Part shown: positions 1,862 through 60,451 of the stretch, piece after piece
Position numbering within the stretch: position 1 is the stretch's first letter
Layout: the number at the start of each line of letters is the position of its first letter
IMG/VR virus record: IMGVR_UViG_3300013137_000013
Coordinates: 1-64,000 of that record
Strand: one strand, 5' to 3'
Source of the DNA: a virus
DNA length: 64,000 bases
Notes under the pieces: generated by a model
Seen by the model: the letters and a program-made list of their open reading frames with translations, nothing else
What the model was told of the DNA's origin: nothing
Database searches by the model: none
Program-made: the position numbers and the translations under genes

Positions 1862-1869
1862 TATAAATA
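1862..1869 (-). promoter_or_regulatory. Late promoter box TATTTATA for the leftward 360-aa gene
   Basis: The minus strand reads TATTTATA 13 bases before the ATG at 1848. This exact octamer recurs in the same orientation and spacing before many late-type genes in the window. Confidence 0.6.
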
Positions 1870-1892
1870 TTTTAATTTTTCTTTTTTTGATT

Positions 1893-1929
1893 TTTGGTGT
1901 TTTTCTTTGTATATTTATTATACACCAAA
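1893..1929. promoter_or_regulatory. Inverted repeat around the PhoH gene promoter region
   Basis: TTTGGTGT at 1893-1900 is repeated in inverted form as ACACCAAA at 1922-1929, with 21 bases between. The spacer holds TATATTTATTAT, which includes a near match (TATTTATT) to the late box. It lies 13 bases before the PhoH start codon. The arrangement looks like an operator overlapping a promoter, but this is inference from symmetry only. Confidence 0.35.
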
Positions 1930-1942
1930 TAAACATTAAATA

Positions 1943-2704
1943 ATGGGAAGAAAAGACCAGACTAGCAGAGCACAAGTAAAAGATGAGTTAAAAAAAGAAG
2001 TAAAGGATTATAATAGTAGCAAAATGAAACCTAAAGGTTCTCTTAAAAGAGAGGAAATTGAAAGGGCTCATATTGAACTTACTCCTAAACAACACGAATT
2101 TTATAAAGCCATAAGAAATAATATTTTTACTTTGGTGCAAGGTCCTGCAGGAACATCAAAAACATTTACGGCATGTTATGCATCACTTTGTTTACTTGCA
2201 GACAAAAAAATAGAAAGAATAGTAATTACAAAACCAATTCAAGAAAGTGGTGAAAATTTAGGATTTTTACCTGGAGATATTGATGAAAAAACAGCTCCTT
2301 TTATGAGAAGTTATATGTCTAACTTTGAAAAAATAATTGGAAAACAAAATGCTGAATTTTTGAAATCTATTGGAGACATAAGTGTAGAACCTCTTGCTTA
2401 TATGAGAGGAGTAACTTATGATAATGCTATAATTTTATTAGATGAAGCGCAAAATGCCACAATGAAACAATTAGTTTTATGGATTACCAGACTTGGAAAA
2501 AATTCAAAAGCCGTTTTAATGGGAGACATTAGTCAATATGACATAAAAAAGAAAGATTCAAAATTTTTAGATTTCATTGAAATGGTTAAGGGAGTTGAGG
2601 AAGTGAATACGTTTGAATTTACTTCAGAAGATATTGTAAGAAATAAGTTTTTAATTGAAATTGTGAATAGATATGAACAGTATAAATTGGAAAATGAAAT
2701 TTAG
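1943..2704 (+). CDS. phoH: PhoH-like ATPase
   Basis: This is a PhoH-family P-loop ATPase, 253 residues, the usual size for phage PhoH proteins. Visible motifs are the Walker A GPAGTSKT at residues 67-74, a Walker B-type ILLDEAQNAT at about 163-172, and a sensor-like MGDISQYD at 193-200. PhoH proteins are very common in large marine and aquatic phages. They are thought to act on RNA or in nucleotide metabolism, but the exact role in infection is not settled. Residues 1-40 are a charged, probably disordered extension. It is transcribed divergently from the leftward genes and followed closely by a 56-residue gene, with a terminator after that. Confidence 0.93.
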   Translation: MGRKDQTSRAQVKDELKKEVKDYNSSKMKPKGSLKREEIERAHIELTPKQHEFYKAIRNNIFTLVQGPAGTSKTFTACYASLCLLADKKIERIVITKPIQESGENLGFLPGDIDEKTAPFMRSYMSNFEKIIGKQNAEFLKSIGDISVEPLAYMRGVTYDNAIILLDEAQNATMKQLVLWITRLGKNSKAVLMGDISQYDIKKKDSKFLDFIEMVKGVEEVNTFEFTSEDIVRNKFLIEIVNRYEQYKLENEI

Positions 2705-2707
2705 AAC

Positions 2708-2715
2708 TATTTATA
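2708..2715 (+). promoter_or_regulatory. Late promoter box TATTTATA
   Basis: TATTTATA lies directly after the PhoH stop codon and 25 bases before the ATG of the 56-residue gene, in the same orientation as that gene. It matches the motif found before other late-type genes. Confidence 0.55.
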
Positions 2716-2740
2716 AGAAACAAATTTAAACTGAATTATT

Positions 2741-2911
2741 ATGGCAAACGATAATGAAAGAAAACAAGGAAGTGGTTTAATAGACCCAAAAAATGCTGCT
2801 GAACCAAAAAAAGAGCCTAAAAAAATTTCTATTAGCCAAGATGGATTAATGGAGAGAGAAGAAAATAAGGTTCTTACTGAAGACGGAAGAGAACTTTTAA
2901 AGGAAAATTAA
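2741..2911 (+). CDS. Small hydrophilic protein, 56 aa
   Basis: This short reading frame starts MANDNERKQGSGLIDPKN and ends LLKEN, 56 residues in all. It is strongly charged (many K and E) with no hydrophobic core and is probably disordered or helical. Support for it being a gene comes from the TATTTATA box 25 bases upstream, the typical A/T-rich ...ATTATGG start context seen at many genes here, and a strong terminator 23 bases after its stop. No function can be assigned. Confidence 0.65.
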   Translation: MANDNERKQGSGLIDPKNAAEPKKEPKKISISQDGLMEREENKVLTEDGRELLKEN

Positions 2912-2934
2912 TAAAGTCCTTCTGTTATTAAAAT

Positions 2935-2962: not shown

Positions 2963-2979
2963 ATTTGTAGTATCACAGA

Positions 2980-3678
2980 TTATTCATTAAAATCATTTGG
3001 CCTTATTCCAGAAAGAATTTGCATTCTTTTTAATGTAGATTCACTAACAAGCTGGTCTTTTTTAGGAACGTCTGCTTTGTCTTCGAAAGGAACTGCAGGT
3101 TTTGGTTTAATTTCAGCATTAACGATTGGAGTGCCATCTTGTTCTTTTACAACACCTTCTTCTTCTTTGCAACCCTCTTCAGCTGGTTTGACTTCATCAA
3201 GGTCTTCTCCAGGTGTTTCTTCATCTGGTATTTTTTCATCTGAAGATTCTTGTCCACTACCCACTTTTTCATCAACAGTGGTTTCGATTTTATCTTCAAT
3301 AGCATCAGCTAGTTTTGCAAGAATTGCGTCAATGTTTAAATCGCCTTCCAATGATTCTTCGTCAGCAGGTTCATCAATAACAACTTCGTCAGAAACTTCT
3401 TCGTCTTCGATTAAGTGACTGCCTTTTTTAGTGAATTCAGCTCCGAATTTTTCATCGCCACCTTTTTCTCCAGTCCAAGCAGTAGAACGAACTTTTTCTT
3501 TTCCACCAGCTTTAACTTCTTCTAAGCCTTCTTCTTCCATATCTTCAGAAACGATTTGTTTCATTTCTTCATTGATTTGTTGAAGTCTGTTTTTTAATTT
3601 TATTTCAGTAAGCTTTTTGAAATATTCTTCTTTTATCATTTGTCTGATTTCTTCTTTCGAAATTTTAATCTTTGCCAT
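2980..3678 (-). CDS. Acidic helical protein with putative N-terminal targeting segment, 232 aa
   Basis: Residues 1-40 are an amphipathic helix (KEEIRQMIKEEYFKKLTE, then LQQINEE). This resembles the N-termini of the proteins at 3744-4835 and 59175-59942. L/I-x-E tripeptides (LTE, INE) occur just after it, the form cut by T4-type prohead proteases. Residues 50-200 are very acidic and low in complexity (runs such as DEVVIDEPADEES), and the C-terminus holds a short conserved-looking ESTLKRMQILSGI. A TATTTATA box lies 21 bases before the start. I infer a virion or prohead-core protein. No homologue is recognised and no protease gene is in the window. Confidence 0.6.
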   Translation of the reverse strand: MAKIKISKEEIRQMIKEEYFKKLTEIKLKNRLQQINEEMKQIVSEDMEEEGLEEVKAGGKEKVRSTAWTGEKGGDEKFGAEFTKKGSHLIEDEEVSDEVVIDEPADEESLEGDLNIDAILAKLADAIEDKIETTVDEKVGSGQESSDEKIPDEETPGEDLDEVKPAEEGCKEEEGVVKEQDGTPIVNAEIKPKPAVPFEDKADVPKKDQLVSESTLKRMQILSGIRPNDFNE

Positions 3679-3699
3679 AACTTTTAGTTTTAAGTTTTC

Positions 3700-3707
3700 T
3701 ATAAATA
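3700..3707 (-). promoter_or_regulatory. Late promoter box TATTTATA
   Basis: The minus strand reads CTATTTATAG, 21 bases before the ATG of the acidic 232-residue protein. Orientation and spacing agree with the other boxes. Confidence 0.6.
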
Positions 3708-3743
3708 GTAAAAAAAAATGAAATTATTATTTTTGTTTAATAA

Positions 3744-4835
3744 TTATTCTGCTGCTGCAGGAGTATATTTTTGTAAAGCATTAATTGCAGCGTTAAACAT
3801 ACTTGCGTTGTATTGTACTACCTGTTGCATTTTTTCTGCCTGTGCTTTAGCTGCTGCTTGTTTTTCATCCTGTCCCTTTTCATATTCTTGACCAGCTGCC
3901 TGTGCTGCTGCTCCAAGTTTCTGTCCGTATTGCTGAATTGGTGCTGCTACTTGTTGAGCTGCACCTTTAACTGCCTGACCTGCCGATTGAGCTGCGCCCT
4001 TAACTGCCTGACCTGCTGCTTTGGCTGTATCTTTAACATCTTTTCCAAACTGTTTAGCTGCACCACCAATCATGGCACCATATTTTCCAAAAAGTTCATC
4101 TAATTCTTCCTGCATTAATTCTCCTGGTTCTTCGCCTTCTGCAAGTGGAATAATTTGTTTTTTGGAATATTGTAAGCCAAAAGGCTTTAATATTGCTTGA
4201 ATATCTTTTTGAAAATTAAATTGTCGTCCAGCTTTATTTAATTGAGCCATTCTTGTCTGTAAAGCTTCGATTGCTTTCTTTTTCATGGTTTCTATTTCTT
4301 GAGATTGCCTTGTTTGCTGATATTGCTGTTGACCTGCTTGTTTACCTGTTTGCCAAGCTGCCTTTACACCTGAAATTCCAGCCTTTAATTTATCAAACAT
4401 GCCTTCGTTTAAGTCACCAAGAGCACCTTCAATTGCAGCAAGTTTTTCTCTTAACATTGCATTTTCATCTTTTAGAGATTGAATATCATCTGTTGGTTCT
4501 GAATCAGTTTTTACATCTTCTTCTCCACCAAATTCTTCAATATCTTTTTCCAATTTTGGGAATTGGTCTAATTTACAACCACATTCTTCAGGAGTTTGGT
4601 CTTCTGGTTTTTGCTCCTCGTAGTGCGATGGAGTAACTAATCCAAGAACTGGATTTGGGCTTTCGGTGTTTTTGAAGCCCCAACCTAACATGGCACCTGG
4701 GTGACCATATTCATTAAGTTGTTTAAGTTCTTCATTTATTTTTTGAGCTTCTTTAAAAAGTTCTCTTTTTCTTTTTATAGTTAGAGCTTCTTTTAAGATA
4801 GCATCTAAAATTTCTTTTTGGCCAATTTTTTTCAT
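3744..4835 (-). CDS. Helical protein with LEA-like 11-residue repeats, 363 aa
   Basis: Residues 1-45 form an amphipathic N-terminal segment (KEILDAILKEAL, then INEELKQLNE) with I/L-x-E sites suited to T4-type prohead processing. Around 120-145 there is a coiled-coil stretch (LKDENAMLREKLAAIE). The C-terminal third is rich in Ala, Gln and Lys, with amphipathic repeats of period 11 such as TAKAAGQAVKGAAQSAGQA, similar to LEA or apolipoprotein helices. There are no catalytic motifs. A near-late box (TATTTATC) precedes it. I infer an abundant internal virion protein or scaffold, perhaps one that binds DNA or other proteins through long helices. Function unproven. Confidence 0.6.
   Translation of the reverse strand: MKKIGQKEILDAILKEALTIKRKRELFKEAQKINEELKQLNEYGHPGAMLGWGFKNTESPNPVLGLVTPSHYEEQKPEDQTPEECGCKLDQFPKLEKDIEEFGGEEDVKTDSEPTDDIQSLKDENAMLREKLAAIEGALGDLNEGMFDKLKAGISGVKAAWQTGKQAGQQQYQQTRQSQEIETMKKKAIEALQTRMAQLNKAGRQFNFQKDIQAILKPFGLQYSKKQIIPLAEGEEPGELMQEELDELFGKYGAMIGGAAKQFGKDVKDTAKAAGQAVKGAAQSAGQAVKGAAQQVAAPIQQYGQKLGAAAQAAGQEYEKGQDEKQAAAKAQAEKMQQVVQYNASMFNAAINALQKYTPAAAE
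3956..4021 (-). repeat. Two 33-bp tandem repeats inside the 363-aa gene
   Basis: Two adjacent 33-base units, at 3956-3988 and 3989-4021, share most of their sequence, including the core CTTAACTGCCTGACCTGC. They encode successive 11-residue repeats of the AAGQAVKGAAQ type, so this is an in-frame coding duplication, not a mobile or regulatory repeat. Confidence 0.7.
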
Positions 4836-4856: not shown

Positions 4857-4864
4857 GATAAATA
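4857..4864 (-). promoter_or_regulatory. Variant late promoter box TATTTATC
   Basis: The minus strand reads TATTTATC, one base off the TATTTATA octamer, 21 bases before the ATG of the 363-residue gene at 4835. Confidence 0.45.
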
Positions 4865-4865
4865 T

Positions 4866-7716: not shown

Positions 7717-8588
7717 AAAAAATAAAATTATTTTCTTCTTATTGCTCGGATGAGCAAATATATAATAACATAGTAGGTTCTTGGGGAAAAGGAAATACCT
7801 CATATAAGGACTTTGTTTTCACAGTTAATGATGATTACACGCATGCAGTACTATTCAATACGGCTATGCATAATAAATCATTAAACCCCAAAAACGTTAT
7901 TGGTTTTTCTCATGAACCCAGGAAAATATTGGGAATAGATAATGATAAAAATTATATAAATTTTGTGGCAAACAACGTTTCTGCTTATTATATAAGTAAT
8001 AGAGACAATTTACCTCCCAATTTTATAGAAGGAAATACTTTTATTTGTCCTTCAGAATTTAAAGAAAGTGAAAATAAATCATATTCTCATGAAAACAGAA
8101 TGAGTATGATATTGTCAATGAAGATGTATATGCCAGGGCACACAATGAGGCATAGAATTTTAAAAGAAATTTTAAAAACAGATTTAGATATTCATTTTTT
8201 TGGAAATGGTGTTGATGAAGTATATAATGATGAAAGAGTAAAAAAGTTTGATTGGAATATTTTTAACATTCCTTATGAAAACTACAAATATCAAATTGTC
8301 GTAGAAAACATAATAGACCGAAATTGGATTTCTGAAAAACTAACAAATTGTATTATTAAAGAAACAATACCAATTTATTATGGGTCAGAAAAGGCCATTA
8401 AGGAATATTATCCAGATAATTCAATTATAATATTAAATGATAATTTAAAAGAAAATGTTGCTAAAATAATTGATTTGTATAACAAAACAGAGAATGGGTT
8501 AACAACTTCTTTTGCAAAAAACAAACTTTATTCAGAAAATAATCTTTTAGAATTTATTTATTTAAAATTTAAAGATGTAGCAATATGA
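7713..8588 (+). CDS. Fucosyltransferase-like protein (GT10 family), 291 aa
   Basis: The region at residues 191-225 (YKYQIVVENI, then ISEKLTNCIIKETIPIYYG) matches the conserved GT10 alpha-1,3/1,4-fucosyltransferase motif, in which an Asn/Glu-rich segment is followed by a Glu-Lys pair and a P-x-Y/V-x-G strand. The first half (VIGFSHEPR at 62-70, then the GNTFICPSEF region) is the acceptor-side lobe of a GT-B fold. GT10 enzymes transfer fucose from GDP-fucose, but other deoxy-sugars cannot be excluded. The start overlaps the preceding gene by 4 bases (ATGA), and its end overlaps the next gene in the same way. Confidence 0.7.
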   Translation: MKKIKLFSSYCSDEQIYNNIVGSWGKGNTSYKDFVFTVNDDYTHAVLFNTAMHNKSLNPKNVIGFSHEPRKILGIDNDKNYINFVANNVSAYYISNRDNLPPNFIEGNTFICPSEFKESENKSYSHENRMSMILSMKMYMPGHTMRHRILKEILKTDLDIHFFGNGVDEVYNDERVKKFDWNIFNIPYENYKYQIVVENIIDRNWISEKLTNCIIKETIPIYYGSEKAIKEYYPDNSIIILNDNLKENVAKIIDLYNKTENGLTTSFAKNKLYSENNLLEFIYLKFKDVAI

Positions 8589-9250
8589 TAGGAGTAATTT
8601 TTTTTCATAAAAACATATTTAAAATCTATCAGGAACGATGGATTAGAAAATCAATGGAATCCATGATACATCAAAAGAAAGTTGATTACAAAGTAGTTTA
8701 TTATGAACTAAACTATGAAGGGAATGGTTTGTCCTTGTTTAAACATTTTGGATTTGAAACAAATGAAAAAACTGATTATTTTTTTATAAATCAAGAAATG
8801 AAAAATCATGTAGAAGCCATGAATTTTATTATTTCAAAAGCATTCCAAGATGGTTGCAAATATGTTTTTAACACAAACTTGGATGATTATTACAGAACTG
8901 ATAGGTTGAAGTTACAACTAGAATTATTGGACGCTGGCGCTGATATTGTATCTTCAGATATGTGTTATATTGATGAAAACGATAAAAGATTTTTCGAAAA
9001 ATATTTAAATCAATTTGACACAAAAGAAAAAATAATTAATGCTTTCAATGGTGGAGATAATGTAATAGCACACCCATGTGTAGGATATTCAAGAAAATTT
9101 TGGGATAACAATAAGTACTTGGATGAAATTCCTATGGAAGATTTTAAGTTATGGAAAAGAACCATTGGTGATTACGACTTTAAAATACACAAAGATGTGC
9201 TTTTGTTTTATAGGATTCATAATTCACAAATAACAAAGAGTTTAAGATAA
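8585..9250 (+). CDS. Glycosyltransferase-like protein (GT-A), 221 aa
   Basis: This is a short GT-A type transferase. It contains YVFNTNLDDYYRTDRL around residues 94-109, with the Asp-Asp expected at the metal and sugar-nucleotide site. Next comes DAGADIVSSDMCYIDE, then a C-terminal acceptor region with HPCVGYSRKFW and MEDFKLWKR, as in GT2 enzymes. The usual N-terminal VSVIIPTYN strand is diverged (IGVIFFHKNIFKIYQ). It is embedded in the island with a 4-base overlap upstream and a TAATG overlap downstream. Donor and acceptor are not known. Confidence 0.65.
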   Translation: MIGVIFFHKNIFKIYQERWIRKSMESMIHQKKVDYKVVYYELNYEGNGLSLFKHFGFETNEKTDYFFINQEMKNHVEAMNFIISKAFQDGCKYVFNTNLDDYYRTDRLKLQLELLDAGADIVSSDMCYIDENDKRFFEKYLNQFDTKEKIINAFNGGDNVIAHPCVGYSRKFWDNNKYLDEIPMEDFKLWKRTIGDYDFKIHKDVLLFYRIHNSQITKSLR

Positions 9251-14955: not shown

Positions 14956-14986
14956 TTGTATTTTTATTTTTTTTTATTTATATTTG
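14956..14986 (+). promoter_or_regulatory. Bacteroidota-type promoter before the metallophosphoesterase gene
   Basis: TTG at 14956-14958, a 20-base spacer, and TATATTTG at 14979-14986 give an exact TTG-N20-TAnnTTTG host-type promoter. The start codon follows 24 bases later. The surrounding intergenic region (14813-15010) is very AT-rich and shows nothing else clear. Confidence 0.7.
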
Positions 14987-15010: not shown

Positions 15011-16615
15011 ATGATGTTAAAAAATTTAGAACAATCCGACATTGAATACATCAAGAAGACTTACGTAGACAAAGCATTAACATGGGATGAAAGAATGGGA
15101 ATTCTTATGAGTCATTTTGGTAAATCCGAAAGAACTGTAAGAAAATGGTTGTCAAAGTTAGGAATAAAAGAGAAAACAAATGGAACAGCAAGAGGCGATG
15201 TAGAATCTCCCCAATTTGAAGAAGCTAAAAAAAAGCAGTTTGACAAAACTAAAAAAAGATTCATTGTAACCTGGGCGCAAAATAATACCCCTGTTCATAA
15301 GCAATTCTTAGAAAACATTAAGGCATATGCAAAATTTTTAGATGCAGACCTTCATGTAATTGCTGGAAGATATAAAAACCCAACTTCTGTTTTTGCAGAT
15401 AAAGACTTTGATTTTTGGGTAGAAGATGTCGCTCCGTATCTTGATGCTAACCGTCACGACATTCACAAATACGTTTCAATTCTATCAGATGTTAAAATTC
15501 AGCCCACTGCCGTAAACCCAATGAGCGGTTTAGAAGGAATGAGTGGGGTTAATTCTTGTATTTTTGGCTCTCCAAAGGTACAAATGGAAGTTATAGGCGC
15601 TCTGGAGGGTTATAGGCCAAAGTTGATGCTTACCACTGGTGCGGTCACTTTAAAGAACTATACGGACTCTAAAGCGGGAAAAAAGGGAGAATTTCATCAC
15701 ATTCTTGGATTTGTAGTAGTAGAAATTAAAGATGAAGAAAAATTCTTCGTCCGTCAAGTTACAGCTACTACAGATGGAGAATTTACAGACCTTTACTATT
15801 CTGTTAAAAATCAAGAAGTAAAAGAAATTGATGGAATAGAAGCTATTGTTTTGGGAGATATTCACCTGGGGCAAGTAGATGAAACTGTTATGAGTTCAAC
15901 AATTGACCTTTTAAACAAACTCAAGCCAGACAATACCATAATTCATGATTTATTTGATGGCTATTCTATAAGCCATCATGACATGAAAGACCCAATAAAA
16001 ATGTATAGGAAAAGTGTAGAAGGCCGAGATTCTCTTAAAAAAGAAGTTGACTATATGCTTACCTGGTTAGAAGAAATGAGGAAATATCATCTTGTAATTG
16101 TAAGAAGTAATCACGATGACTTTGTTGATAGGTGGATAATAAATACAGACTGGAAGAAAAATATTCCAAATTCAGTTGAATATATGGAATATACAAAAGC
16201 TCTACTTGAAGACAAAGCCCCCAACGGAATTATCCCTTACATTATTAACCAAAGGTTTAAAGATGTCAAAACTCTTGGTAGAATGGATTCGTTTAAAGTT
16301 AAAAAATGGGAATTGGGGGTTCACGGAGATTACGGGCAAAATGGAAGTCAGGGTTCAATTACACAATTTAGAAAATTAAATACAAAACTGGTTATTGGTC
16401 ACTCTCATACTCCAGGAAGGAAAGATGGAGTTTTGCAGGTTGGAACATCTACCAAAAAGAGACTTGGGTACAACCTTGGTGCCAGCACATGGCTAAATTC
16501 ACACGTTATTATTCACAGAGATGGAAAAGCACAACATGTAAATTTCCTTGACGGAGAATATACAACATTTAAAATGGAAAATTTTCAGAAAAAGACTGCA
16601 AAACATAAAAAATAA
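15011..16615 (+). CDS. Metallophosphoesterase with N-terminal helix-turn-helix, 534 aa
   Basis: Residues about 24-51 look like a helix-turn-helix (WDERMGILMSHFGKSERTVR, then KWLSKLGI). The C-terminal half is a calcineurin-like phosphoesterase: GDIHLG (D283, H285), HDLFDG near 316, SNHDDF (N367, H368) and GHSHTP (H464, H466), which together give the two-metal site. Large phages encode related proteins, and the family also includes phage T5 A1-like proteins implicated in host DNA breakdown. That likeness is architectural only. A Bacteroidota-type promoter suggests early expression. A nuclease or phosphodiesterase acting on DNA is inferred, and the substrate is not proven. Confidence 0.8.
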   Translation: MMLKNLEQSDIEYIKKTYVDKALTWDERMGILMSHFGKSERTVRKWLSKLGIKEKTNGTARGDVESPQFEEAKKKQFDKTKKRFIVTWAQNNTPVHKQFLENIKAYAKFLDADLHVIAGRYKNPTSVFADKDFDFWVEDVAPYLDANRHDIHKYVSILSDVKIQPTAVNPMSGLEGMSGVNSCIFGSPKVQMEVIGALEGYRPKLMLTTGAVTLKNYTDSKAGKKGEFHHILGFVVVEIKDEEKFFVRQVTATTDGEFTDLYYSVKNQEVKEIDGIEAIVLGDIHLGQVDETVMSSTIDLLNKLKPDNTIIHDLFDGYSISHHDMKDPIKMYRKSVEGRDSLKKEVDYMLTWLEEMRKYHLVIVRSNHDDFVDRWIINTDWKKNIPNSVEYMEYTKALLEDKAPNGIIPYIINQRFKDVKTLGRMDSFKVKKWELGVHGDYGQNGSQGSITQFRKLNTKLVIGHSHTPGRKDGVLQVGTSTKKRLGYNLGASTWLNSHVIIHRDGKAQHVNFLDGEYTTFKMENFQKKTAKHKK

Positions 16616-20116: not shown

Positions 20117-21035
20117 TGTACTTGTCGCAATTTTTATTGACGATTTAAGTAATTTAATCACATTAGAAGAAACATTTTACAGTGTTTCTAAACAGACACA
20201 TAATGTTGATTTACTTGTGTTGCACTCAAACACATTTTCTGATGAGCAAATCAATTCTTTAAAGTCAGCATTGGATAAACCAAAGCTTATTTTAAGAAAG
20301 CAAAATGCAGAAGGAAAATTAGAAGAACAGGTTTTAGAAACTGATGGAAAAATAAATTATTTTTTAACCCCATCAAATTCTGATTCTTTTCCAAAAATTT
20401 TCAATGAAGGATTTAATGTTGCATCAGAAAATGAGTATGAATTCTTTTCCGTCATTGAACCAAATGATGTAGTAGGATTGAATTGGTATACCCAGGCAAA
20501 CATTTATGCAAAAGAAAATGAAAATGTTTCAATGTTCTTCCCAATTATTAGGAATACTGTAAATGGTGTTTTTAATGGGTTACTTAATGAAGCGCCTTGG
20601 GCTGAAGGACTTGCGGAAGAAGCAGGAAAAATTGATTTAAATCTTTTAAATCGTTTTAACTGTGTTGTTCCAACGGGCTCTATGCTTAAAATAAGTGCTC
20701 TCAAAGAATATAGCGAACAAAGGCAAGATGGAAAGTTTTATCCATTTAAAGAAAGCATGAAAATCAGTCATTATTATGAATTCTTAATGAGAATGGTTTA
20801 TAATGATGTGAAAGCAATGTGCATCCCCAGAATCGGGTACGAATTCAAAGTTAAAAACAATAATGAATTCAAACACGTTTATTGTAAAATTCCGCAGAAT
20901 ATTGCCCAAATTCCTGCTGAACAGGGAGGAATAACCCCAAATGAAGGCAAATTTTGGATGGAAACTGCGAAAAAAGAATATTTCTTTGATGAAGACAGGA
21001 ACAAAGTTTATGAAGAAGCGAGTCAGCAAAACTAA
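20076..21035 (+). CDS. GT2-like glycosyltransferase homologue, 319 aa
   Basis: The first half resembles a GT-A domain (VLVAIFIDDLSNLITLEETF, then LLVLHSNTFSDEQI), and EPNDVVGLNW falls where the DxD site would be. The metal motif is therefore atypical and activity uncertain. C-terminal FNCVVPTGSMLKISAL and SHYYEFLMRMVYND fit GT2 acceptor regions. An alternative start at 20088 would shorten the overlap with the preceding gene. It lies between the GT4 gene and the sigma factor. Confidence 0.55.
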   Translation: MKESMNLKDLKNSNVLVAIFIDDLSNLITLEETFYSVSKQTHNVDLLVLHSNTFSDEQINSLKSALDKPKLILRKQNAEGKLEEQVLETDGKINYFLTPSNSDSFPKIFNEGFNVASENEYEFFSVIEPNDVVGLNWYTQANIYAKENENVSMFFPIIRNTVNGVFNGLLNEAPWAEGLAEEAGKIDLNLLNRFNCVVPTGSMLKISALKEYSEQRQDGKFYPFKESMKISHYYEFLMRMVYNDVKAMCIPRIGYEFKVKNNNEFKHVYCKIPQNIAQIPAEQGGITPNEGKFWMETAKKEYFFDEDRNKVYEEASQQN

Positions 21036-22032
21036 GAAAAAACAAAACTTTGATATACAAAACGAGGATGAGGTATTAGATTTTTTTTGCCAGGAATGCG
21101 CAGATAGAAACGAACTCAAAGAGGACTCAGAAGAGCCAGAGTCTCAACTACCAGACGAATTCGAAGAAAAAATCTTAAACGAATCTGAATTAAAAATCGA
21201 AAGTAATGAGTTGGTACTTGATGAGAAAAGCGTTAAGACATATTGGACCGACGATACTGAAGCGGGGGTTATAGATTTTCTATACCTTAATGAATTTTTT
21301 TATGAAAATAGAATTAAAGAAGAGATAGAAGATGCACAAAAAGAAAAGCGTGTAGTAAACAAATTCTATTGCAATGAAATGCAAAGAAAGATGGAAGAAG
21401 TAATGCGCATTTCAGACCGTGTAGAAAGAAGGGAAAAAATTTTTAGAGAAAAAATTGAAACTCCGCTTAAAAAACTTGTCGAAAACATTCTTTTTAATTA
21501 TAAATTACTTTTACCATACACAGATTCAAAAACTCAGCAAAAAGATTGTTTTACCTTTTTATATCTTAAGTTTTCCAATTTTAACCCATGGAGAAAAACC
21601 AAATCCTTTTCTTATTTTGGAACTATTGCAAAACATCATTTTCTCGGAAACAAAAAAGAATTTTCCAAAAATTTGAAAATTCTTTATGACTATGATTCGA
21701 ACAAAGAAGAAGCTGACAACAAAAAAATAGAAGACCCTAAACCATATGTAAAAGAAGATACATTATCTGATTTTTTTAATTTTATCATATCGTCTATTGA
21801 ATCTGAACTAAATAAAGGTTCCTTATCTAAAAATGACCAAAAGGTCGGAGACGCAATAGTTCAAATTTTTAGAAACCACGAAATTTTAGGAGTATACAAT
21901 AAAAACCAAGTATACCAACTAATTAAAGAAAACACAGGACTAGAAACAAAAGATATAACTTACTCCTTACACAGATTCAGAATTATATATAAAGTTTTAA
22001 AACAAGAATTTGTGAATAAACGAGAAGAATAA
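21010..22032 (+). CDS. gp55-like late-transcription sigma factor (putative), 340 aa
   Basis: The ATG at 21010 is preferred over 20941 because an AGGA lies about 9 bases upstream and the longer form would lie deep inside the previous gene. Residues 1-100 are charged and acidic. From about 175 on, the LYLKFSNFNPWRKTKSFSYF then GTIAKHHFLGNKKEF block resembles sigma-70 region 2 as reduced in T4 gp55-like factors (F-x-P...K-x-F-S-Y-F...I-A). The C-terminus (HRFRIIYKVLKQEF) is basic and helical. In T4-like phages gp55 directs late transcription. Here it would read the TATTTATA boxes. No gp33 or gp45 homologue is in view. Confidence 0.55.
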   Translation: MKKRVSKTKKKQNFDIQNEDEVLDFFCQECADRNELKEDSEEPESQLPDEFEEKILNESELKIESNELVLDEKSVKTYWTDDTEAGVIDFLYLNEFFYENRIKEEIEDAQKEKRVVNKFYCNEMQRKMEEVMRISDRVERREKIFREKIETPLKKLVENILFNYKLLLPYTDSKTQQKDCFTFLYLKFSNFNPWRKTKSFSYFGTIAKHHFLGNKKEFSKNLKILYDYDSNKEEADNKKIEDPKPYVKEDTLSDFFNFIISSIESELNKGSLSKNDQKVGDAIVQIFRNHEILGVYNKNQVYQLIKENTGLETKDITYSLHRFRIIYKVLKQEFVNKREE

Positions 22033-22048: not shown

Positions 22049-22056
22049 TATTTATA
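22049..22056 (+). promoter_or_regulatory. Late promoter box TATTTATA
   Basis: The exact octamer lies 15 bases before the ATG of the 126-residue gene that opens the tail/baseplate region. Confidence 0.65.
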
Positions 22057-22071: not shown

Positions 22072-22452
22072 ATGGCTGAAAAAATAGAAATTTCAAAAGA
22101 CGGTTATCTAGCTTTAATTAAACGAGTCTTTGAAAACAAACTCGAAGAAAGAGAGCTTGCCTTGGACAGATACAGAAAGGCGGATGACCAAATGGAAACT
22201 GCAGAGCAGTTTGCAATAATGGGAAAAAATGCTGTTTCCTTTTTAAACCTAGCGTCCTTATCTACAAATGATTTAGCGGCACTGGCCAAAGAGGTCAAAA
22301 GTCTTGTCTATAAAGACGAAGTAGGCGGCGACATCAATCTTAATTTATCTGAGGATTGGAAAACAGCCATTTCCGAAAAAATTGAAGAGGTTGAAAAAGC
22401 AAGAACTTCTTCTAGGAACGTAGATAACAACAACGATAGCGAGGGAAAATAA
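22072..22452 (+). CDS. Small helical tail-region protein, 126 aa
   Basis: The protein is almost all helix, with a charged N-terminal coiled-coil-like region and a disordered Asn/Ser tail (DNNNDSEGK). It has no catalytic motif. It opens the 22-49 kb virion region with its own late box and overlaps the next start by one base. I infer a small virion or assembly protein; no homologue is recognised. Confidence 0.55.
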   Translation: MAEKIEISKDGYLALIKRVFENKLEERELALDRYRKADDQMETAEQFAIMGKNAVSFLNLASLSTNDLAALAKEVKSLVYKDEVGGDINLNLSEDWKTAISEKIEEVEKARTSSRNVDNNNDSEGK

Positions 22453-27289: not shown

Positions 27290-27297
27290 TATAAATA
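27290..27297 (-). promoter_or_regulatory. Late promoter box TATTTATA
   Basis: The minus strand reads CTATTTATAA, 14 bases before the ATG of the 471-residue adhesin. It faces away from the plus-strand box at 27362. Confidence 0.65.
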
Positions 27298-27361: not shown

Positions 27362-27369
27362 TATTTATA
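27362..27369 (+). promoter_or_regulatory. Late promoter box TATTTATA
   Basis: The exact octamer lies 17 bases before the start of the gp25-like gene, divergent from the box for the adhesin. The 110-base gap between the two genes holds only these two promoters as far as I can see. Confidence 0.65.
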
Positions 27370-37299: not shown

Positions 37300-37307
37300 T
37301 ATTTATA
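37300..37307 (+). promoter_or_regulatory. Late promoter box TATTTATA
   Basis: The exact octamer lies 13 bases before the ATG of the 291-residue virion gene. Confidence 0.65.
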
Positions 37308-39851: not shown

Positions 39852-39859
39852 TATAAATA
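39852..39859 (-). promoter_or_regulatory. Late promoter box TATTTATA
   Basis: The minus strand reads CTATTTATAA, 12 bases before the ATG of the SHAEG fibre gene. Confidence 0.65.
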
Positions 39860-41599: not shown

Positions 41600-43975
41600 T
41601 TATTCGGCCACTAATTGTTGTGATGAACTAATTATAGATGCTGTGGCGATTACGGCACCAATTTCTGAATTAACAGTTTTAGTATTAACACTACATGTAA
41701 TGTTTAAAGCCTTTATGGATGCCTCCTTTGTCTCAATTTTTTGGCAGGAAAACTTAAAAGGAAAAACATTTTGCTGAGTTGGAATAATAATTTTTACATC
41801 AGAAAGCGAACAATACTTAAATTGTCCTATCACTGGTTCTAAAGAATCTCTTCTAAACATAGAACCTTTGTCAACTCCTTCTCTGTAAACAAATCTTTCT
41901 CTATGAAAAACTGGATTTTTATATGTAGTTGGAACGTGTTCATTAAAAATTGTGGTAGCTGGAACTAATTGTAGCATATAATCTCCGAGTTGTACTTCAA
42001 GTAACTGTATGTATGATTCCAATTTACACATTGTTAGTGAATTGCTATCAGGACAAGTTGCATAATAATAAGATAAATATATATTTTTTAGTTCTGGATA
42101 GCCCCAAACAGTATGACATTGTGCGTTTGTTTTTCTATTTGTTGGATTAATTGAATTCGTATAAACATAATCTATATACTGACTTAAAGTCATAGCAGCT
42201 ATATTTATTGGTTGCACGTCTTCTTGTGTAAAAGTTAAAAATTCAAACGGAATAGTCATACAACTAAAAGAAGGGCATGGACTGCCCCACATCCATGATG
42301 CACATGGTTGCTGAAAATATTGCCAAACATCACATTCAATAGCTTGTGTTGGAGCAAATTCAAGTCCCACTTCTTTTGTGTTAACAATACTTCTTGTACC
42401 ATCAATTGGGTCTCCAACCTCTATTTTAATATTATCAACCCTCATAAGTGGGTCAAATTCTGGCCTCCATTGATTAATATAATCATATCCATTTCCCCTG
42501 TTAATTCCCCCTTGTTGGAATATATATAAACTTTCAGAATAATTAATATATCCGTCAGTATCAACTTTTGATGTTACATTTGGGGCTGTTTTAACAATAT
42601 CATAAACAAATTCATTGAAATTTATTAAACAATCTGGAGCTCCAAGAAGTTTAAATATAAACGTAATAGCGTCTCTGGTGCCCTTTTTCTTATACAACCA
42701 CACTATATTAATTAAAATTCTTCTCCAAATTTCAACATTAAAATAAGAAAATGAATTATTGCTTTGGTCCAAATCGCTTGTTAAATAATCAAACAAATCC
42801 AATTCGCTAAATCCATCTGATAATTTCCACCCCAAAAGAGTCCCTAACTTCATCATAAATTTTCTTGGAACAGTTTCTTCGTTATTATATTCAACACTAT
42901 GAGCATATGCTATTGCGTCTATATAATTTTTAAGTTTATCAAATTCATAAGCATATGTTTGAATAATACTTCTATAAATTTGTCCATTGGAATCCAACTC
43001 CAAATAGTTTTCTGGAATTACAGTTTTTATAAAAATATCAGTTTTCTCCTCATCAACCCTTTCTGCTGCAACTAAAATTTTATCTTTATATGTTTCAAAA
43101 TTAGAACCATATGAATCAGGAGCAAAACCATCAATCGTTCTTGGCCATATAAATTGTTTATTAATATAATCATCTTCTGTTGTTTCTGTATTTGGAATCG
43201 CAAAAATTCCTTCTCCCAACAATTGTGTTTCTAATGAAGTTATCGAATCATTGTAATTATACATTCTTTCAATGGTTGGCCTGATGTATAATGCTTTTGT
43301 AAAAACAGGACTTGAATTGCCACCCATTAAAAGCCCAGAGACTTCAAAATACAAATATGTTCCAGAGAAAGAATAGTTTTTTATTTTATGAATTTCCGTT
43401 TGTCCACTTAATTGTACACAAAACTGTTTATAGTCATAAGATAAACTGTAATTATTAGGAGTATTTGCAGACGTTAAAATAATATTACTTTGGTTAGTTA
43501 AACCAGATGTTGGTATTTTAAAAACCGACCACGTTTCAAACGTTATATTGTCATAGTGCTCAGAATAGTCAAATATATTTACGTTACCATTATTATAAGA
43601 TAGAATTGCATATGGATAGTCGGATATTATTCTATTTATTGCTGACGCTACGCTGGTATAAAACGAAGAAAAATAAGAATGACTTTTAGGTTTTCTTTTT
43701 GGTAAATTTAATTCGTTTTGTTGAACGAATGTGCTAGAAACAGAACTAATTAAATTTACAGCATTTAAGGTCTCTAAATTATCAAATGTGCCAAAACTAG
43801 CAAATTGTGTAGAGGAAGTTAAAACATCTAGGGAATAATTTTTTTCAATTGTAAAATCCCCAAAAGAAAATATGGCATCAGACTTTGAGGCTACTAATCT
43901 TTTTTCCTTTCCTGGTTGTGGACGTATAGATAATGTTGTAGCAGAATTTATATTTGTCTCAAAAGGTATTGGCAT
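41600..43975 (-). CDS. Large tail protein with P2 gpI-like segment, 791 aa
   Basis: A segment at about residues 385-480 fits the P2-gpI or Mu gp48-type tail-protein domain found in contractile systems: KLGTLLGWKLSDGFSELDLF, then WRRILINIVWLYKKKGTRD and AITFIFKLLGAPDCLIN. In these systems it links the baseplate to fibres. The other domains are beta-rich; residues 560-580 are cysteine-rich (QPCASWMWGSPCPSFSC), possibly metal-binding. It heads the leftward fibre operon with its own late box. Confidence 0.65.
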   Translation of the reverse strand: MPIPFETNINSATTLSIRPQPGKEKRLVASKSDAIFSFGDFTIEKNYSLDVLTSSTQFASFGTFDNLETLNAVNLISSVSSTFVQQNELNLPKRKPKSHSYFSSFYTSVASAINRIISDYPYAILSYNNGNVNIFDYSEHYDNITFETWSVFKIPTSGLTNQSNIILTSANTPNNYSLSYDYKQFCVQLSGQTEIHKIKNYSFSGTYLYFEVSGLLMGGNSSPVFTKALYIRPTIERMYNYNDSITSLETQLLGEGIFAIPNTETTEDDYINKQFIWPRTIDGFAPDSYGSNFETYKDKILVAAERVDEEKTDIFIKTVIPENYLELDSNGQIYRSIIQTYAYEFDKLKNYIDAIAYAHSVEYNNEETVPRKFMMKLGTLLGWKLSDGFSELDLFDYLTSDLDQSNNSFSYFNVEIWRRILINIVWLYKKKGTRDAITFIFKLLGAPDCLINFNEFVYDIVKTAPNVTSKVDTDGYINYSESLYIFQQGGINRGNGYDYINQWRPEFDPLMRVDNIKIEVGDPIDGTRSIVNTKEVGLEFAPTQAIECDVWQYFQQPCASWMWGSPCPSFSCMTIPFEFLTFTQEDVQPINIAAMTLSQYIDYVYTNSINPTNRKTNAQCHTVWGYPELKNIYLSYYYATCPDSNSLTMCKLESYIQLLEVQLGDYMLQLVPATTIFNEHVPTTYKNPVFHRERFVYREGVDKGSMFRRDSLEPVIGQFKYCSLSDVKIIIPTQQNVFPFKFSCQKIETKEASIKALNITCSVNTKTVNSEIGAVIATASIISSSQQLVAE

Positions 43976-43992: not shown

Positions 43993-44000
43993 TATAAATA
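43993..44000 (-). promoter_or_regulatory. Late promoter box TATTTATA
   Basis: The minus strand reads AATATTTATAAA, 17 bases before the ATG of the 791-residue tail gene. The 139-base divergent gap to the next rightward gene also holds the box at 44092. Confidence 0.62.
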
Positions 44001-44091: not shown

Positions 44092-44099
44092 TATTTATA
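44092..44099 (+). promoter_or_regulatory. Late promoter box TATTTATA
   Basis: The exact octamer (ATTATTTATAGG) lies 15 bases before the ATG of the 699-residue gene. Confidence 0.65.
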
Positions 44100-44114: not shown

Positions 44115-46214
44115 ATGAGTTATATAGTTCAAGAACCCTCAAATTTTATAAACATCAAGCTTACTGATACAGGAAGAAGATTATTATCGTTGGGAGCATT
44201 AACTTTTAATAGTATAATCTTTTCCGACAGAGAAGTTAATTATTACTTAGGAAGAAATAATATATATGATATTTGTCGCAATAGAGTTTTAGCTCCAAAA
44301 GATGACCAACCAGCCATTTCTGGGATTCCGTTTAATCAAATACCTAGTATTTCAACTCCCACGGCAGTTGAAAAACTAAGCCTTGCCTTAAGTTCAAGTT
44401 TCAACGGAGCCAATAGTGTTCCCATAACTTCACAAAACTTAACAAGTGCAAAACAAATTGTTTCTGCCATGACGAGTTCGGTTGGTTTTTTCACTGGTAG
44501 TTCTTATAATTGGCAAATAAAAACTGGAGCAACAGTTGGCGATGCTTATAGCATTGGCATGGCCGAAATAGATTATTCAACGACTATTCCAAATGGAACA
44601 ACAGAAATTGATGTTACAGCTGGAGGATATACTGCAAAAACGGGGGATTTGGTTTATATTCCATGGGAACCACCTCAATATAGTGCTATAACTAATAATA
44701 CAACTTATGTGTTTAGTGCAAGACCAGAAGTTGCATTATGGTATAGAGTTCAGGGGGTAAATGGAACCACTCTTTCTCTTGATAGAAGTGTACCAAATTT
44801 TGGGAATACCCCAATCGTGGGCTCTACTCAAAAAATTAAAGCATATTTTTATCCTTATGGAAAAGTAGAAAACTTTTATGGTTCTGCGGTGACAGTGGAT
44901 TGTGGAGTTTGGAATATGAATATAGTAAGAACATCTTCTGAAATTGGAACACTCCCATTAATGAGTGGGTATACAACATATGGTTCTATTGAATATAATG
45001 GAACAAAACAATATTTAGGTTTTGGATATGATATCAAAGCTTTTGGTATAATTCATTATACAAACAAATTTTCTGGAAATACCTATGCAGAACAATTAGT
45101 ACCAAAAACGGTTAAATTAGAAATTCCAAATATAATGTGGCACAGAAGTTATTCTGTATCAGTTGGCCAAGAATTGATTCATGGCTTGACATTATATGAT
45201 TATTATGGAACTGACATATTCGATACAATTGCTCAAACAACTTACAGAGAGCTGAGAGATGGAACATCAAGCACATCTTTTGTAGTTGGAAGAGTTTATC
45301 ATAAACTTAAAATAATTGTTATAACCGACCAAGAATTGTTGACGGCTTTAACATATAAATCAAATAGAAATTATACATTACCAGAATTAACACTTTCTAC
45401 AGAGCCATCTATACTTGGCTCATCATCTGGATTTTGTAAGAGTGATTATGTTTATTATGTAACATATTTAACGTCAAGCAATGCTTATCAAGACGGTGTA
45501 AGTTATGGATACTCACAAAGTTTACCATGTGGTTATATAAAACAAATTAATGGAGATACAGATACAGTTACTGGTCTACATTCTGTTTTAAAAGCCAACT
45601 TCTCAACACTCTCATTTCCTTACATGAGAAATAGCACTAATTTAACATCTTTATCTGGAACTGGATGGAATGCCAATTCAGTACAATTAATATTCCAAGA
45701 ATATCCAGTATCGGCCTCTACAAACGTGGGAACTTTACCTACAGATTTGTGGAAAATATTCACTGGAGGCAATGGGGTATATACTGGAGAAACAGGTAGT
45801 ACAACTATAAATCCAGCAGATTTGCAGAGTCACGTTTTTGCTCTCAATCTGTCAGATTACTATTCATCAACCACCTATTCATTAACAGGCTTATATTCCG
45901 CATTTACTACAAATACAGATTCATATACTTCAAGTGGATTAACATTTGGTGACGAGGCATTCTTTTATGGTAATTTAACAACAGGAATTCAGGCAAATGT
46001 TTACAAAACAATTATTACTATATATGCAAAAAATGACGAATATAATTCATCTTTGAATTCTACTTTCGACAGTTTGTATAATGATAGTACGTTTATAACC
46101 GAAATAGGAATTTTGAATACCAAAAATGAACTTGTGGCAGTGGCCAAGCCAGCTTATCCAATAAAAAAGGATTCTTCAAGATACCTTGCATTTCAGTTGG
46201 AATTAGATTTTTAA
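44115..46214 (+). CDS. Tail/fibre structural protein with shared terminal modules, 699 aa
   Basis: The N-terminal segment (NFINIKLTDTGRRLLSLGAL, then IIFSDREVNYYLGRN) resembles that of the 144-residue protein at 46250. The C-terminal segment (FITEIGILNTKNELVAVAKP, then YPIKK and FQLELDF) closely resembles the end of the 390-residue protein at 47467. The long middle is beta-rich and likely fibrous. These shared ends suggest that the four proteins at 44.1-48.6 kb assemble together at the tail. No enzyme motif is seen. Confidence 0.6.
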   Translation: MSYIVQEPSNFINIKLTDTGRRLLSLGALTFNSIIFSDREVNYYLGRNNIYDICRNRVLAPKDDQPAISGIPFNQIPSISTPTAVEKLSLALSSSFNGANSVPITSQNLTSAKQIVSAMTSSVGFFTGSSYNWQIKTGATVGDAYSIGMAEIDYSTTIPNGTTEIDVTAGGYTAKTGDLVYIPWEPPQYSAITNNTTYVFSARPEVALWYRVQGVNGTTLSLDRSVPNFGNTPIVGSTQKIKAYFYPYGKVENFYGSAVTVDCGVWNMNIVRTSSEIGTLPLMSGYTTYGSIEYNGTKQYLGFGYDIKAFGIIHYTNKFSGNTYAEQLVPKTVKLEIPNIMWHRSYSVSVGQELIHGLTLYDYYGTDIFDTIAQTTYRELRDGTSSTSFVVGRVYHKLKIIVITDQELLTALTYKSNRNYTLPELTLSTEPSILGSSSGFCKSDYVYYVTYLTSSNAYQDGVSYGYSQSLPCGYIKQINGDTDTVTGLHSVLKANFSTLSFPYMRNSTNLTSLSGTGWNANSVQLIFQEYPVSASTNVGTLPTDLWKIFTGGNGVYTGETGSTTINPADLQSHVFALNLSDYYSSTTYSLTGLYSAFTTNTDSYTSSGLTFGDEAFFYGNLTTGIQANVYKTIITIYAKNDEYNSSLNSTFDSLYNDSTFITEIGILNTKNELVAVAKPAYPIKKDSSRYLAFQLELDF

Positions 46215-46229: not shown

Positions 46230-46237
46230 TATTTATA
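46230..46237 (+). promoter_or_regulatory. Late promoter box TATTTATA
   Basis: The exact octamer (ATATATTTATAAAA) lies 12 bases before the ATG of the 144-residue gene. Confidence 0.62.
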
Positions 46238-46249: not shown

Positions 46250-46684
46250 ATGGGAAACGTTTTATCATCAAGTACGATTTATGCAGTAGCATATTTAACA
46301 GATTTGGGAAGAAAGTATTTGTTTGACCCAATAACAAATCATAGATTTGTAAGAGATGCTGCTGGAAATACAATTGATGCTTTTAAAATTGTATATTTTT
46401 CTATGTCTGACCCAGACTACAATTATAATTTAACTCAAGGAATAGCACTTGAAAGTGGCGACATTGCTAATGTTTCTGGGAAAAATGACGATTTTATCCA
46501 AGGTTCCATTGTTAGCGAAGAAAACAATTTGATTTCTGTAAACGGAGAAGTTGGGGGCATGAATGGTATGACAACTCCAACAGAAAATATATCAATAGAT
46601 GTTCCTTATATTTTAGAAAGCAATATGACTGACAACGTTCTCACAGTTAATACAAGTACGTTTCAAGTTGCTACAGGTATATAA
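46250..46684 (+). CDS. Small tail protein, 144 aa
   Basis: The N-terminal region (IYAVAYLTDLGRKYLFDP, then FKIVYFSMSDPDYNYNL) is related to the start of the 699-residue neighbour: both contain LTD-x-GR-x-L and an FSD/SMSD-x-x-x-NY segment. It lacks the C-terminal VAVAKP module. It is a beta-rich structural protein with its own late box. Its role in the tail is inferred from this kinship. Confidence 0.58.
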   Translation: MGNVLSSSTIYAVAYLTDLGRKYLFDPITNHRFVRDAAGNTIDAFKIVYFSMSDPDYNYNLTQGIALESGDIANVSGKNDDFIQGSIVSEENNLISVNGEVGGMNGMTTPTENISIDVPYILESNMTDNVLTVNTSTFQVATGI

Positions 46685-49322: not shown

Positions 49323-49330
49323 TATTTATA
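49323..49330 (+). promoter_or_regulatory. Late promoter box TATTTATA
   Basis: The exact octamer (GATATTTATAGG) lies 32 bases before the ATG of the 64-residue lipoprotein, the longest gap in this series. Confidence 0.55.
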
Positions 49331-49362: not shown

Positions 49363-49557
49363 ATGAAAAAACTAATTACATTGTTATTTGCAATCTTAGC
49401 ATTTGCATTAGTTTCTTGCAACTTTGGAGAAACAAAAGAAGAAGTAAAAACCGATTCAACCGCAGTATGCGTTGATACAACAAAAGTGGTAGTAGATACC
49501 ATAGCTAAAGTTGATACTTGCGAAAAAGTAGAAAAAGCACCTGTTGTAAAAAAATAA
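49363..49557 (+). CDS. Small lipoprotein, 64 aa
   Basis: A signal peptide (MKKLITLLFAILAFALVSC) ends in the lipobox LVSC with Cys19, so the protein should be lipidated and exported. The mature part is short, lysine-rich and repetitive (VDTTKVVVDTIAKVDTC). The residues right after Cys (NFGE) lack the dense acidic tract used for outer-surface export in Bacteroidota. The start at 49363 is preferred over 49318 because it gives a proper signal. Phage lipoproteins such as T5 Llp block receptors; a similar exclusion role is a possibility, not shown. Confidence 0.75.
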   Translation: MKKLITLLFAILAFALVSCNFGETKEEVKTDSTAVCVDTTKVVVDTIAKVDTCEKVEKAPVVKK

Positions 49558-59112: not shown

Positions 59113-59143
59113 TTAGTAAATTAATTTTTTATTTTTTTTTCTA

Positions 59144-59151
59144 TATTTATA
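59144..59151 (+). promoter_or_regulatory. Late promoter box TATTTATA
   Basis: The exact octamer (CTATATTTATAGG) lies 23 bases before the ATG of the 255-residue membrane-associated protein. Confidence 0.62.
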
Positions 59152-59174
59152 GGAAATGTAAAAAAAATATTGCT

Positions 59175-59942
59175 ATGAAAATTAAAAAATCTATCGTAGA
59201 ACAGATAATAAAAGAAGAAGCTGTAAAAGTTAAGAAACTTATTTCTTTAAACGAAGAAAAAAAGGTTATTCTCAAACAGCTCAACGAATTATATGAAGAA
59301 CAACCAGAAGAAGAGCCAGTAATGGAAGAAGATTCAATTTTAAGTTTGATTCCAGACCCAAAAGACCAGCAAATCGCACAACAAGACATTCAACAGGCAC
59401 AGCAAACTGGACAACAAGCCACACCAACTACATTAGAAGAAGAAATGCTAAGTGAAGCTATGGGTGGAGTATTGGGAAAACTTCAAAATTTGTTACTTGG
59501 TAAATTAAAAGCCCAAAACCCAGAAGGTTTTGAACAAGCTGCAGATGCTGTTGGACAGAAATATGCTAACGCATCATATGCAGATATATTCAAAAGTGTT
59601 AAAGCAGCAGCACAGCCTGTAATGGAAGAAGCAGTTGCAACAGGTAAAAAAACAATGACCAAAGATGAGGCTAAATCAACAGTTGAAAAAGTTGCTGGTA
59701 AAGTCGGAAGTGCTTTAGGTATTGCAGCCCCAATCACTTACTTTGCAAGTGCTATGTGGACAGCCGCAACAGGAACAGGTTTCGGAATACCTTCAATACT
59801 TGGCATGGCATCTGGTGGTCTTTTAGCAGCAGCCGTTGTTGCTGGATTAATTTATCTTCTTGCTGTTTATTACAAACAGAAAAAGCAGCAAAAACCTGCA
59901 GCACCAGCAGCTAAAGCACCAGCCGCAGCTCCACAAGCTTAA
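59175..59942 (+). CDS. Virion-type protein with N-terminal segment and membrane helices, 255 aa
   Basis: Residues 1-40 form an amphipathic helix (KSIVEQIIKEEAVKVKKLIS) followed by LNE, the same kind of segment as in the proteins at 2980-3678 and 3744-4835. Two hydrophobic stretches at about residues 182-235 (ITYFASAMWTAATGTGFGIP, then GGLLAAAVVAGLIYLLAVYY) are likely membrane helices. The C-terminus is Lys/Pro/Ala-rich. A late box and the LNE site fit a processed internal virion protein that enters or forms a membrane channel during infection, by inference. Confidence 0.58.
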   Translation: MKIKKSIVEQIIKEEAVKVKKLISLNEEKKVILKQLNELYEEQPEEEPVMEEDSILSLIPDPKDQQIAQQDIQQAQQTGQQATPTTLEEEMLSEAMGGVLGKLQNLLLGKLKAQNPEGFEQAADAVGQKYANASYADIFKSVKAAAQPVMEEAVATGKKTMTKDEAKSTVEKVAGKVGSALGIAAPITYFASAMWTAATGTGFGIPSILGMASGGLLAAAVVAGLIYLLAVYYKQKKQQKPAAPAAKAPAAAPQA

Positions 59943-59964
59943 TTAAATTATAGCAATTATAAAC

Positions 59965-59991
59965 AAAAAAGCCCCGCATTGGGGCTTTTTT
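59965..59991. terminator. Bidirectional rho-independent terminator
   Basis: An 11-bp stem (AAAAAAGCCCC with GGGGCTTTTTT) has the 5-base loop GCATT. It lies between the rightward virion gene and the leftward putative holin gene, so it can serve both. Confidence 0.88.
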
Positions 59992-60317
59992 TATTTCTTA
60001 TCTTCTGGTTTATCTTCAGGTTCCTGAAAGTTATTATTAATACTATGAACTACGCCGTCAATCATGCCATGTACCTCAATCACTTTTTTCTTGAATAAAA
60101 ATCTATACATTAACTCAAAGAAAATTGGATAAATGATAAGAGAAAGTGTAATAAAGCCAAGCGTTTGCTGAGTGATGGAAAAATCAATCTTCATGGCAAC
60201 GGGTGCCATAAAAATGAAAAAATTAACGAAAAATCCCATACCTTTACTAAATAAGGTTTTGAGGGCAATAAGAAAAATTTTTACTATTCTCCAACCGATG
60301 TTTGCCTTTGTTTCCAT
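59991..60317 (-). CDS. Two-helix membrane protein, holin candidate, 108 aa
   Basis: Two hydrophobic segments at about residues 25-46 (GMGFFVNFFIFMAPVAM) and 51-72 (FITLSLIIYPIFFELMY), a basic loop after them and an acidic tail (NFQEPEDKPEDKK) fit a class II holin by size and topology. It lies directly next to the endolysin gene but on the opposite strand, so a shared operon is not available. A holin would permeabilise the inner membrane to release the endolysin. The alternative is a membrane protein of unknown role. Confidence 0.5.
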   Translation of the reverse strand: METKANIGWRIVKIFLIALKTLFSKGMGFFVNFFIFMAPVAMKIDFSITQQTLGFITLSLIIYPIFFELMYRFLFKKKVIEVHGMIDGVVHSINNNFQEPEDKPEDKK

Positions 60318-60443
60318 AATTACGTTTCTTTTGTTTGTTTCTACTAAATAATACGAAAATTAACAAAAAATGTTGCAAATTAATTATCTTTTATTTGGAA
60401 ATATTATTTTTTTTCGTATGGCGAATATTAGAAAAAAAATACC

Positions 60444-60451
60444 TATTTATA
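60444..60451 (+). promoter_or_regulatory. Late promoter box TATTTATA
   Basis: The exact octamer (CCTATTTATAAAG) lies 16 bases before the endolysin ATG. The 150-base divergent gap holds this and nothing else clear. Confidence 0.65.

Follow-up and report, generated by a model that had tools for sequence, protein, structure and literature searches.

Phage T4 reads its late promoters with RNA polymerase carrying gp55, together with gp33 and the sliding clamp gp45. T4 gp55 flips out the bases at -12, -9 and -8 (PMC7892883), and the late box is known to vary among phage groups, S-PM2 using NATAAATA and Aeh1 a variant at -13/-12 (PMC2984593, PMC2988020). According to a T4 review, a fusion of gp55 and gp33 has not been found in nature (PMC2988020). 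For the probable late box described here, TATTTATA, we found no report in the open literature, subscription papers lying outside the search.

The DNA analysed (hereafter the window) comprises 64,000 nucleotides of a viral contig of 76,245 bases with 78 called genes, which is part of a T4-type myovirus genome. Its baseplate wedge protein shares 84% identity with the counterpart in a 372-kb IMG/VR contig, G001, and 28% with that of the cultured Flavobacterium phage immuto, whose annotation includes a T4-like gp20, a gp21-type protease and gp23. G001 encodes proteins homologous to the terminase, portal, protease, major capsid protein, sheath and tube of immuto. A megablast search with the baseplate region against annotated phages gave no matches. 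The genomes used for comparison were G001, immuto, further IMG/VR contigs, Microcystis phage Mel-JY01, LR756508 (a 484-kb uncultured phage, of which 400 kb were compared) and T4. Genes were called with a simple caller that misplaces some starts, so the box counts given below are slightly too low; in the G001 baseplate assembly gene, for instance, the box lies inside the called gene.

Occurrence of the box in the window and in related phages

A first-pass annotation of the window had listed fourteen exact TATTTATA octamers before start codons, and the variant TATTTATC before one further gene. All fourteen lie where it placed them and on the same strands, and the variant is indeed found before gene 3744-4835(-); the list had missed a box at 14975, before the gene starting at 15011. 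The features of the window are as follows, with the fraction of orthologues that keep the exact box.

1862..1869 (-): TATTTATA box, 13 nt before gene 766-1848(-); exact in 2/3 orthologues
2708..2715 (+): TATTTATA box, 25 nt before small gene 2741-2911(+); 2/2 orthologues
3700..3707 (-): TATTTATA box, 21 nt before gene 2980-3678(-); 1/1 orthologue
4857..4864 (-): variant TATTTATC, before gene 3744-4835(-); same variant in G001, before the gene adjoining the orthologous block
14975..14982 (+): TATTTATA, 28 nt before 15011-16615(+), phrog_1745; 0/4 orthologues
20989..22032 (+): candidate late sigma factor, 347 aa (a longer start at 20941 is also open); likely a distant gp55 relative
22049..22056 (+): TATTTATA box, 15 nt before 22072-22452(+); 13/15 orthologues
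27290..27297 (-): TATTTATA box, 14 nt before 25860-27275(-), divergent with the 27362 box; 14/19 orthologues
27362..27369 (+): TATTTATA box, 17 nt before 27387-27770(+), a homologue of the immuto baseplate assembly protein; 8/14 orthologues
37300..37307 (+): TATTTATA box, 13 nt before 37321-38196(+); 14/19 orthologues exact, 5 variant
39852..39859 (-): TATTTATA box, 12 nt before 38229-39839(-), a homologue of an immuto tail spike; 4/4 orthologues
43993..44000 (-): TATTTATA box, 17 nt before 41600-43975(-), divergent with the 44092 box; 3/4 orthologues
44092..44099 (+): TATTTATA box, 15 nt before 44115-46214(+); 3/4 orthologues
46230..46237 (+): TATTTATA box, 12 nt before 46250-46684(+); 3/4 orthologues
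49323..49330 (+): TATTTATA box, 32 nt before small gene 49363-49557(+); the matching small gene of G001, 243372-243563, is also boxed
59144..59151 (+): TATTTATA box, 23 nt before 59175-59942(+)
60444..60451 (+): TATTTATA box, 16 nt before endolysin gene 60468-61367(+); 2/2 orthologues

Since none of its orthologues keeps it, the copy at 14975 is probably outside the system, either by chance or as a lineage-specific sequence. Between 4923 and 13673 the window holds a run of tightly packed rightward genes, with a glycosyltransferase gene first, none of which is preceded by TATTTATA; a TATCTTTACATAA-like sequence is found before the first gene of this run.

The window contains 30 copies of TATTTATA against 11.6 expected, a number reached in 0 of 100 dinucleotide shuffles. 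The contig carries further boxes beyond the window, at 64808, 70914, 74310 and 75136, and 19 of its 78 genes have a sense copy within 60 nt of the start, at a distance of 11-32 nt. Only two antisense copies lie upstream of genes, both overlapping coding sequence, in agreement with the uniform orientation that had been claimed, and the divergent pairs at 27290/27362 and 43993/44092 have one box each, as had also been noted. The motif search against shuffled controls proposed along with these claims, run on the 76-kb contig, set the 19 boxed genes against an average of 0.83, and no more than 4 in any shuffle, when the upstream regions were dinucleotide-shuffled region by region. In an unbiased count of 8-mers, TATTTATA was the top enriched upstream word in both the window contig and G001.

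The same bias was found in the relatives. In G001, TATTTATA precedes 98 of the 454 genes, and sense and antisense copies within 60 nt of starts number 101/18 in G001, 28/10 in G002, 21/7 in G007, 12/1 in G008 and 23/6 in immuto. Between 7 and 50 nt upstream, the values are 12/1 in Mel-JY01 and 5/1 in G005, while G006 shows little strand asymmetry (6/4) and LR756508, with a higher G+C, shows no enrichment of TATTTATA upstream of genes. Overall, sense enrichment far exceeds shuffles in three genomes, and strand asymmetry is seen in six. Regarding conservation, the exact box is kept in 76 of 103 reciprocal-best orthologues of boxed window genes, many of the proteins being 30-60% identical, against 3 of 234 orthologues of unboxed window genes; the genomes are mutually related and the 103 cases are not independent events, but the contrast is still very large.

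One could argue that TATTTATA merely recurs by chance in AT-rich DNA, given a G+C content of 31% and 15 intragenic copies in the contig that lack the flanks described below. Those 15 do look like chance copies, because the flanking signature is missing. For the upstream copies as a set, however, the shuffles, the strand asymmetry and the conservation among orthologues refute this explanation, to which we give practically no credence.

Anatomy of the signal and the genes that it precedes

When the upstream copies are aligned by the box, the full signal consists of a T-tract, then (A/C)TATTTATA, then an A-run. Counting from the box, A or C occupies position -1 in 92% of the copies in G001 and in 100% of those in immuto, C is rare at +8, and A is found from +10 to +13, reaching 92% at +11 and 85% at +12 in G001. 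The T-tract precedes the box by 5-10 nt, and in G001 T rises again, more weakly, some 10 nt farther upstream; the aligned boxes of immuto have no T-tract. None of these box-locked flanks is found around intragenic copies. The G001 T-tracts, at -6 and -16 from the late box, are about 10 nt apart, a spacing that suggests bent DNA or an UP-like aid.

The A-run is fixed relative to the box and the distance from box to start codon varies, which fits the start region of a promoter and not a ribosome signal. With the T4 placement of the box, from -13 to -6, the A-run would fall at about -3 to +1. The alternative, that the box acts in the RNA on translation or mRNA stability, could draw on the AU-rich sequence and on the position of most boxes, 10-25 nt before start codons. 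Yet the A-run and the T-tract are locked to the box and not to the start codon, divergent genes have one box each, and the box is nearly missing within tight operons with gaps below 20 nt (0/31, 2/145, 1/85 and 0/126), where translation signals are equally needed. We consider such a role very unlikely.

Upstream of the T-tract, the box-aligned copies show no conserved -35/-33 element. TTG at the -33 distance accompanies 0.11-0.32 of the TATTTATA sites, which is the background level, in comparison with 0.74 (G001) and 0.50 (G002) of the TAnnTTTG sites. The latter, in the form TTG-N~19-TAnnTTTG, are host-type (Bacteroidota primary-sigma) promoters in the relatives, and in G001 they precede the RecA, primase, SbcC and PhoH units. 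Several members of the group have such Bacteroidota-type earlier promoters, and several are apparently Bacteroidota phages.

The genes preceded by TATTTATA are of another kind. In immuto, the box was found before 14 of 56 virion-module genes and 5 of 162 others (p=6e-6), and the objection that it might be as common before replication genes did not hold there, as 0 of 28 replication and nucleotide genes are boxed. In G001, TATTTATA or its variant TATTTATT precedes the terminase, portal, scaffold, protease, capsid, sheath, tube and spike genes; an exonuclease/DnaB replication unit preceded by TATTTATA is an exception, and many boxed genes have no known function. Taking gene function as a stand-in for timing, the 'late' class is well supported for the virion genes.

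These data also bear on whether TATTTATA could be a variant -7 box of the host primary sigma, in which case no phage sigma would be needed. The T, A and T positions common to TATTTATA and TAnnTTTG, and the presence of both box types in the same genomes, speak for it. However, TTG at -33 stays at background for the TATTTATA sites, unlike the TAnnTTTG sites, the gene sets of the two box types differ, and TATTTATA is also found in Mel-JY01, the phage of a cyanobacterium. In our view, this explanation is unlikely, and a late promoter is the most likely function to predict for TATTTATA from its position, its flanks and its genes.

Further boxes were found in the same genomes. In immuto, a different box, TATATTTAGGTATCAATAATTAAAA, precedes 15 genes outside the virion modules. 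Around 15 small genes at 60-77 kb of this genome (NC_055915.1) are preceded by the long and uniform box TATATTTAGGTATCAATAATTAAAAC, which is never found in front of virion genes and is likely an early promoter. In G001, a third class, TTTGCTTTATATA, with a uniform form of approximately CCCACTTTTT-N-ATAATTTGCTTTATATA-N-TCATAACCAAAAA, was detected ahead of 37 of the 55 small genes between 317 and 347 kb, likely an early-gene region. G001 also carries a fourth motif, TTTCGTATA.

A candidate sigma family

No multi-subunit RNA polymerase was found in the phages, and therefore the polymerase used is presumably that of the host; the search for a single-subunit RNA polymerase gave no match in any control genome and is therefore uninformative. 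As for the clamp, the gp45 profile (phrog_223) matched T4 only, and not the window contig, G001, G002, G007 or immuto, and no bacterial beta clamp was found in the phages, although very divergent clamps or missing contig parts could escape these searches.

Searching with phrog_234, the PHROG profile of T4 gp55, we obtained a weak match to immuto gp118 (E=0.008), at a loose threshold that also gave matches in 7 of 14 control genomes. The homologues of gp118 form one family, comprising the window gene 20989-22032, members in G001, G002, G007, G008, Mel-JY01, LR756508, G005 and G006, and a dozen further loci. The family was found in all compared phages that hold the region, including LR756508, where a member is present although the enrichment of TATTTATA is absent; in immuto and Mel-JY01, its members are annotated as 'hypothetical protein'. 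Two of the family matches, L111 (G006 8432-9220) and L108 (LR756508 100297-100950), cross one in-frame TAA or TAG, which may reflect a frame edge, a sequencing error or stop recoding.

The G006 member matched the gp55 profile over domain 2 with E=5e-6, the relation being weak for most members. A profile-profile comparison of the family with gp55 aligned the same region (P=0.0057), and with a gp55 profile built here, immuto gp118 ranked first in its proteome (E=7.5e-4). The AlphaFold model has a mean pLDDT of 70, with a helical core mostly at around 80-96. Its first 30 matches among PDB folds were sigma factors or sigma-containing complexes, with probabilities up to 0.97 and a best E of 0.03, none reaching E 0.001, and the matches in a viral fold library include phage sigma factors. 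Searching PDB sequences with the profile of the family returned no matches. Taken together, these individually weak matches make it likely that the family consists of divergent sigma-domain-2 proteins, distantly related to T4 gp55, and the window gene 20989-22032 is the likely candidate for the cognate factor that would read TATTTATA. The C-terminal 93 residues fold confidently on their own (pLDDT 88); as a fold search with this separate domain matched nothing meaningful, its identity as sigma domain 4 was dropped.

The phages encode other sigma70-type proteins, namely G001 98736-99575(-), of 279 aa, which resembles a primary-type sigma, and the ECF-like orthologues G001 343082-343708(+), of 208 aa, and G002 165382-166002(+). 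One of these, for example either G001 protein, might read TATTTATA instead; both G001 proteins lie well above the Sigma70_r2 cut-off, a better match than that of the favoured candidate to gp55. Nevertheless, immuto has the box and no Sigma70_r2 match, and the other genomes hold no homologue of the 279-aa protein and, in G002 only, one of the 208-aa protein, whereas the 20989-22032 family is present in all of the genomes. We regard a reader outside this family as improbable.

We consider it probable, then, that TATTTATA marks the late promoters of a group of large T4-type myoviruses and that these are read by a phage sigma of the 20989-22032 family; function, timing, start and pairing are what we infer from the evidence given above. 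Under this model, the host core RNA polymerase would carry the very divergent phage-encoded sigma and open the DNA at (A/C)TATTTATA, acting as a -10-type element. No -35/-33 element would be used, and the upstream T-tract may aid opening or bending in most members. RNA would start in the A-run a few bases downstream of the box, giving short leaders for virion, spike, baseplate and lysis genes, while earlier genes would be read by the host sigma from TTG-N~19-TAnnTTTG and from further lineage-specific boxes. More speculatively, and with low probability, the family could be a one-chain late sigma, in which a gp55-like domain 2 is combined with a C-terminal domain of its own that binds polymerase or DNA, and which works without a T4-type clamp or a separate gp33; if true, the gp55-gp33 fusion would have a natural counterpart.

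Such a late-gene code would make late genes recognisable from sequence alone in a group of large phages annotated mostly as hypothetical, and the box points to a likely sigma family that had gone unrecognised. Two questions about the T4 late system also become open to testing: by what route its box changed, and whether it can do without a T4-type sliding clamp.

Comparison with T4 and other known promoters

The first-pass annotation had described a late promoter of a T4-related phage in which the T4 box appears in its opposite-strand form. The late promoter itself is well supported by orientation, position, conservation among orthologues, the association with virion genes, the lack of boxes before immuto replication genes and a gp55-like candidate gene, but the opposite-strand form is misleading. 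TATTTATA is the reverse complement of the T4 consensus TATAAATA, but each octamer is nearly palindromic. When both are written along the direction of transcription, all positions agree except the two central ones, T4 positions -10 and -9. Given the bases flipped by gp55, one of the three is therefore changed here. It is simplest to assume that a -10-type box has changed and that a diverged gp55-like protein reads it; a reversed promoter would be a more complicated assumption. A change from gp55 H95 to F, seen in the profile alignment and considered as the cause of the changed -9 base, was dropped because cyanophage gp55s share the F while S-PM2-type cyanophages keep NATAAATA.

T4 was included in the same pipeline as a positive control and gave 21/5 sense/antisense copies of TATAAATA and 5/21 of TATTTATA, a mirror result that serves as a check on the method and demonstrates a difference between the two phage groups. 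Sense copies of TATAAATA number 2 in the window contig, 18 in G001 and 6 in immuto, in comparison with 19, 101 and 23 for TATTTATA.

The present system resembles that of T4 in having a single AT-rich -10-type octamer before virion genes, no -35 element and a gp55-like candidate. It differs in the central bases of the box (TT here, AA in T4), in the box-locked A-run, accompanied by a T-tract in most members, in the size of the candidate sigma (232-347 aa with an extra C-terminal domain, against 185 aa for T4 gp55) and in that no gp45 was found here. Bacteroidota primary-sigma promoters (-33 TTTG / -7 TAnnTTTG), which also occur in the relatives before replication genes, are distinguished from TATTTATA by a different -7 sequence, with two fixed positions differing, by the -33 TTG and by a different gene set. 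Finally, in the S-PM2 and Aeh1 variants the first positions of the T4 box are changed, whereas in TATTTATA the change affects the two central ones.
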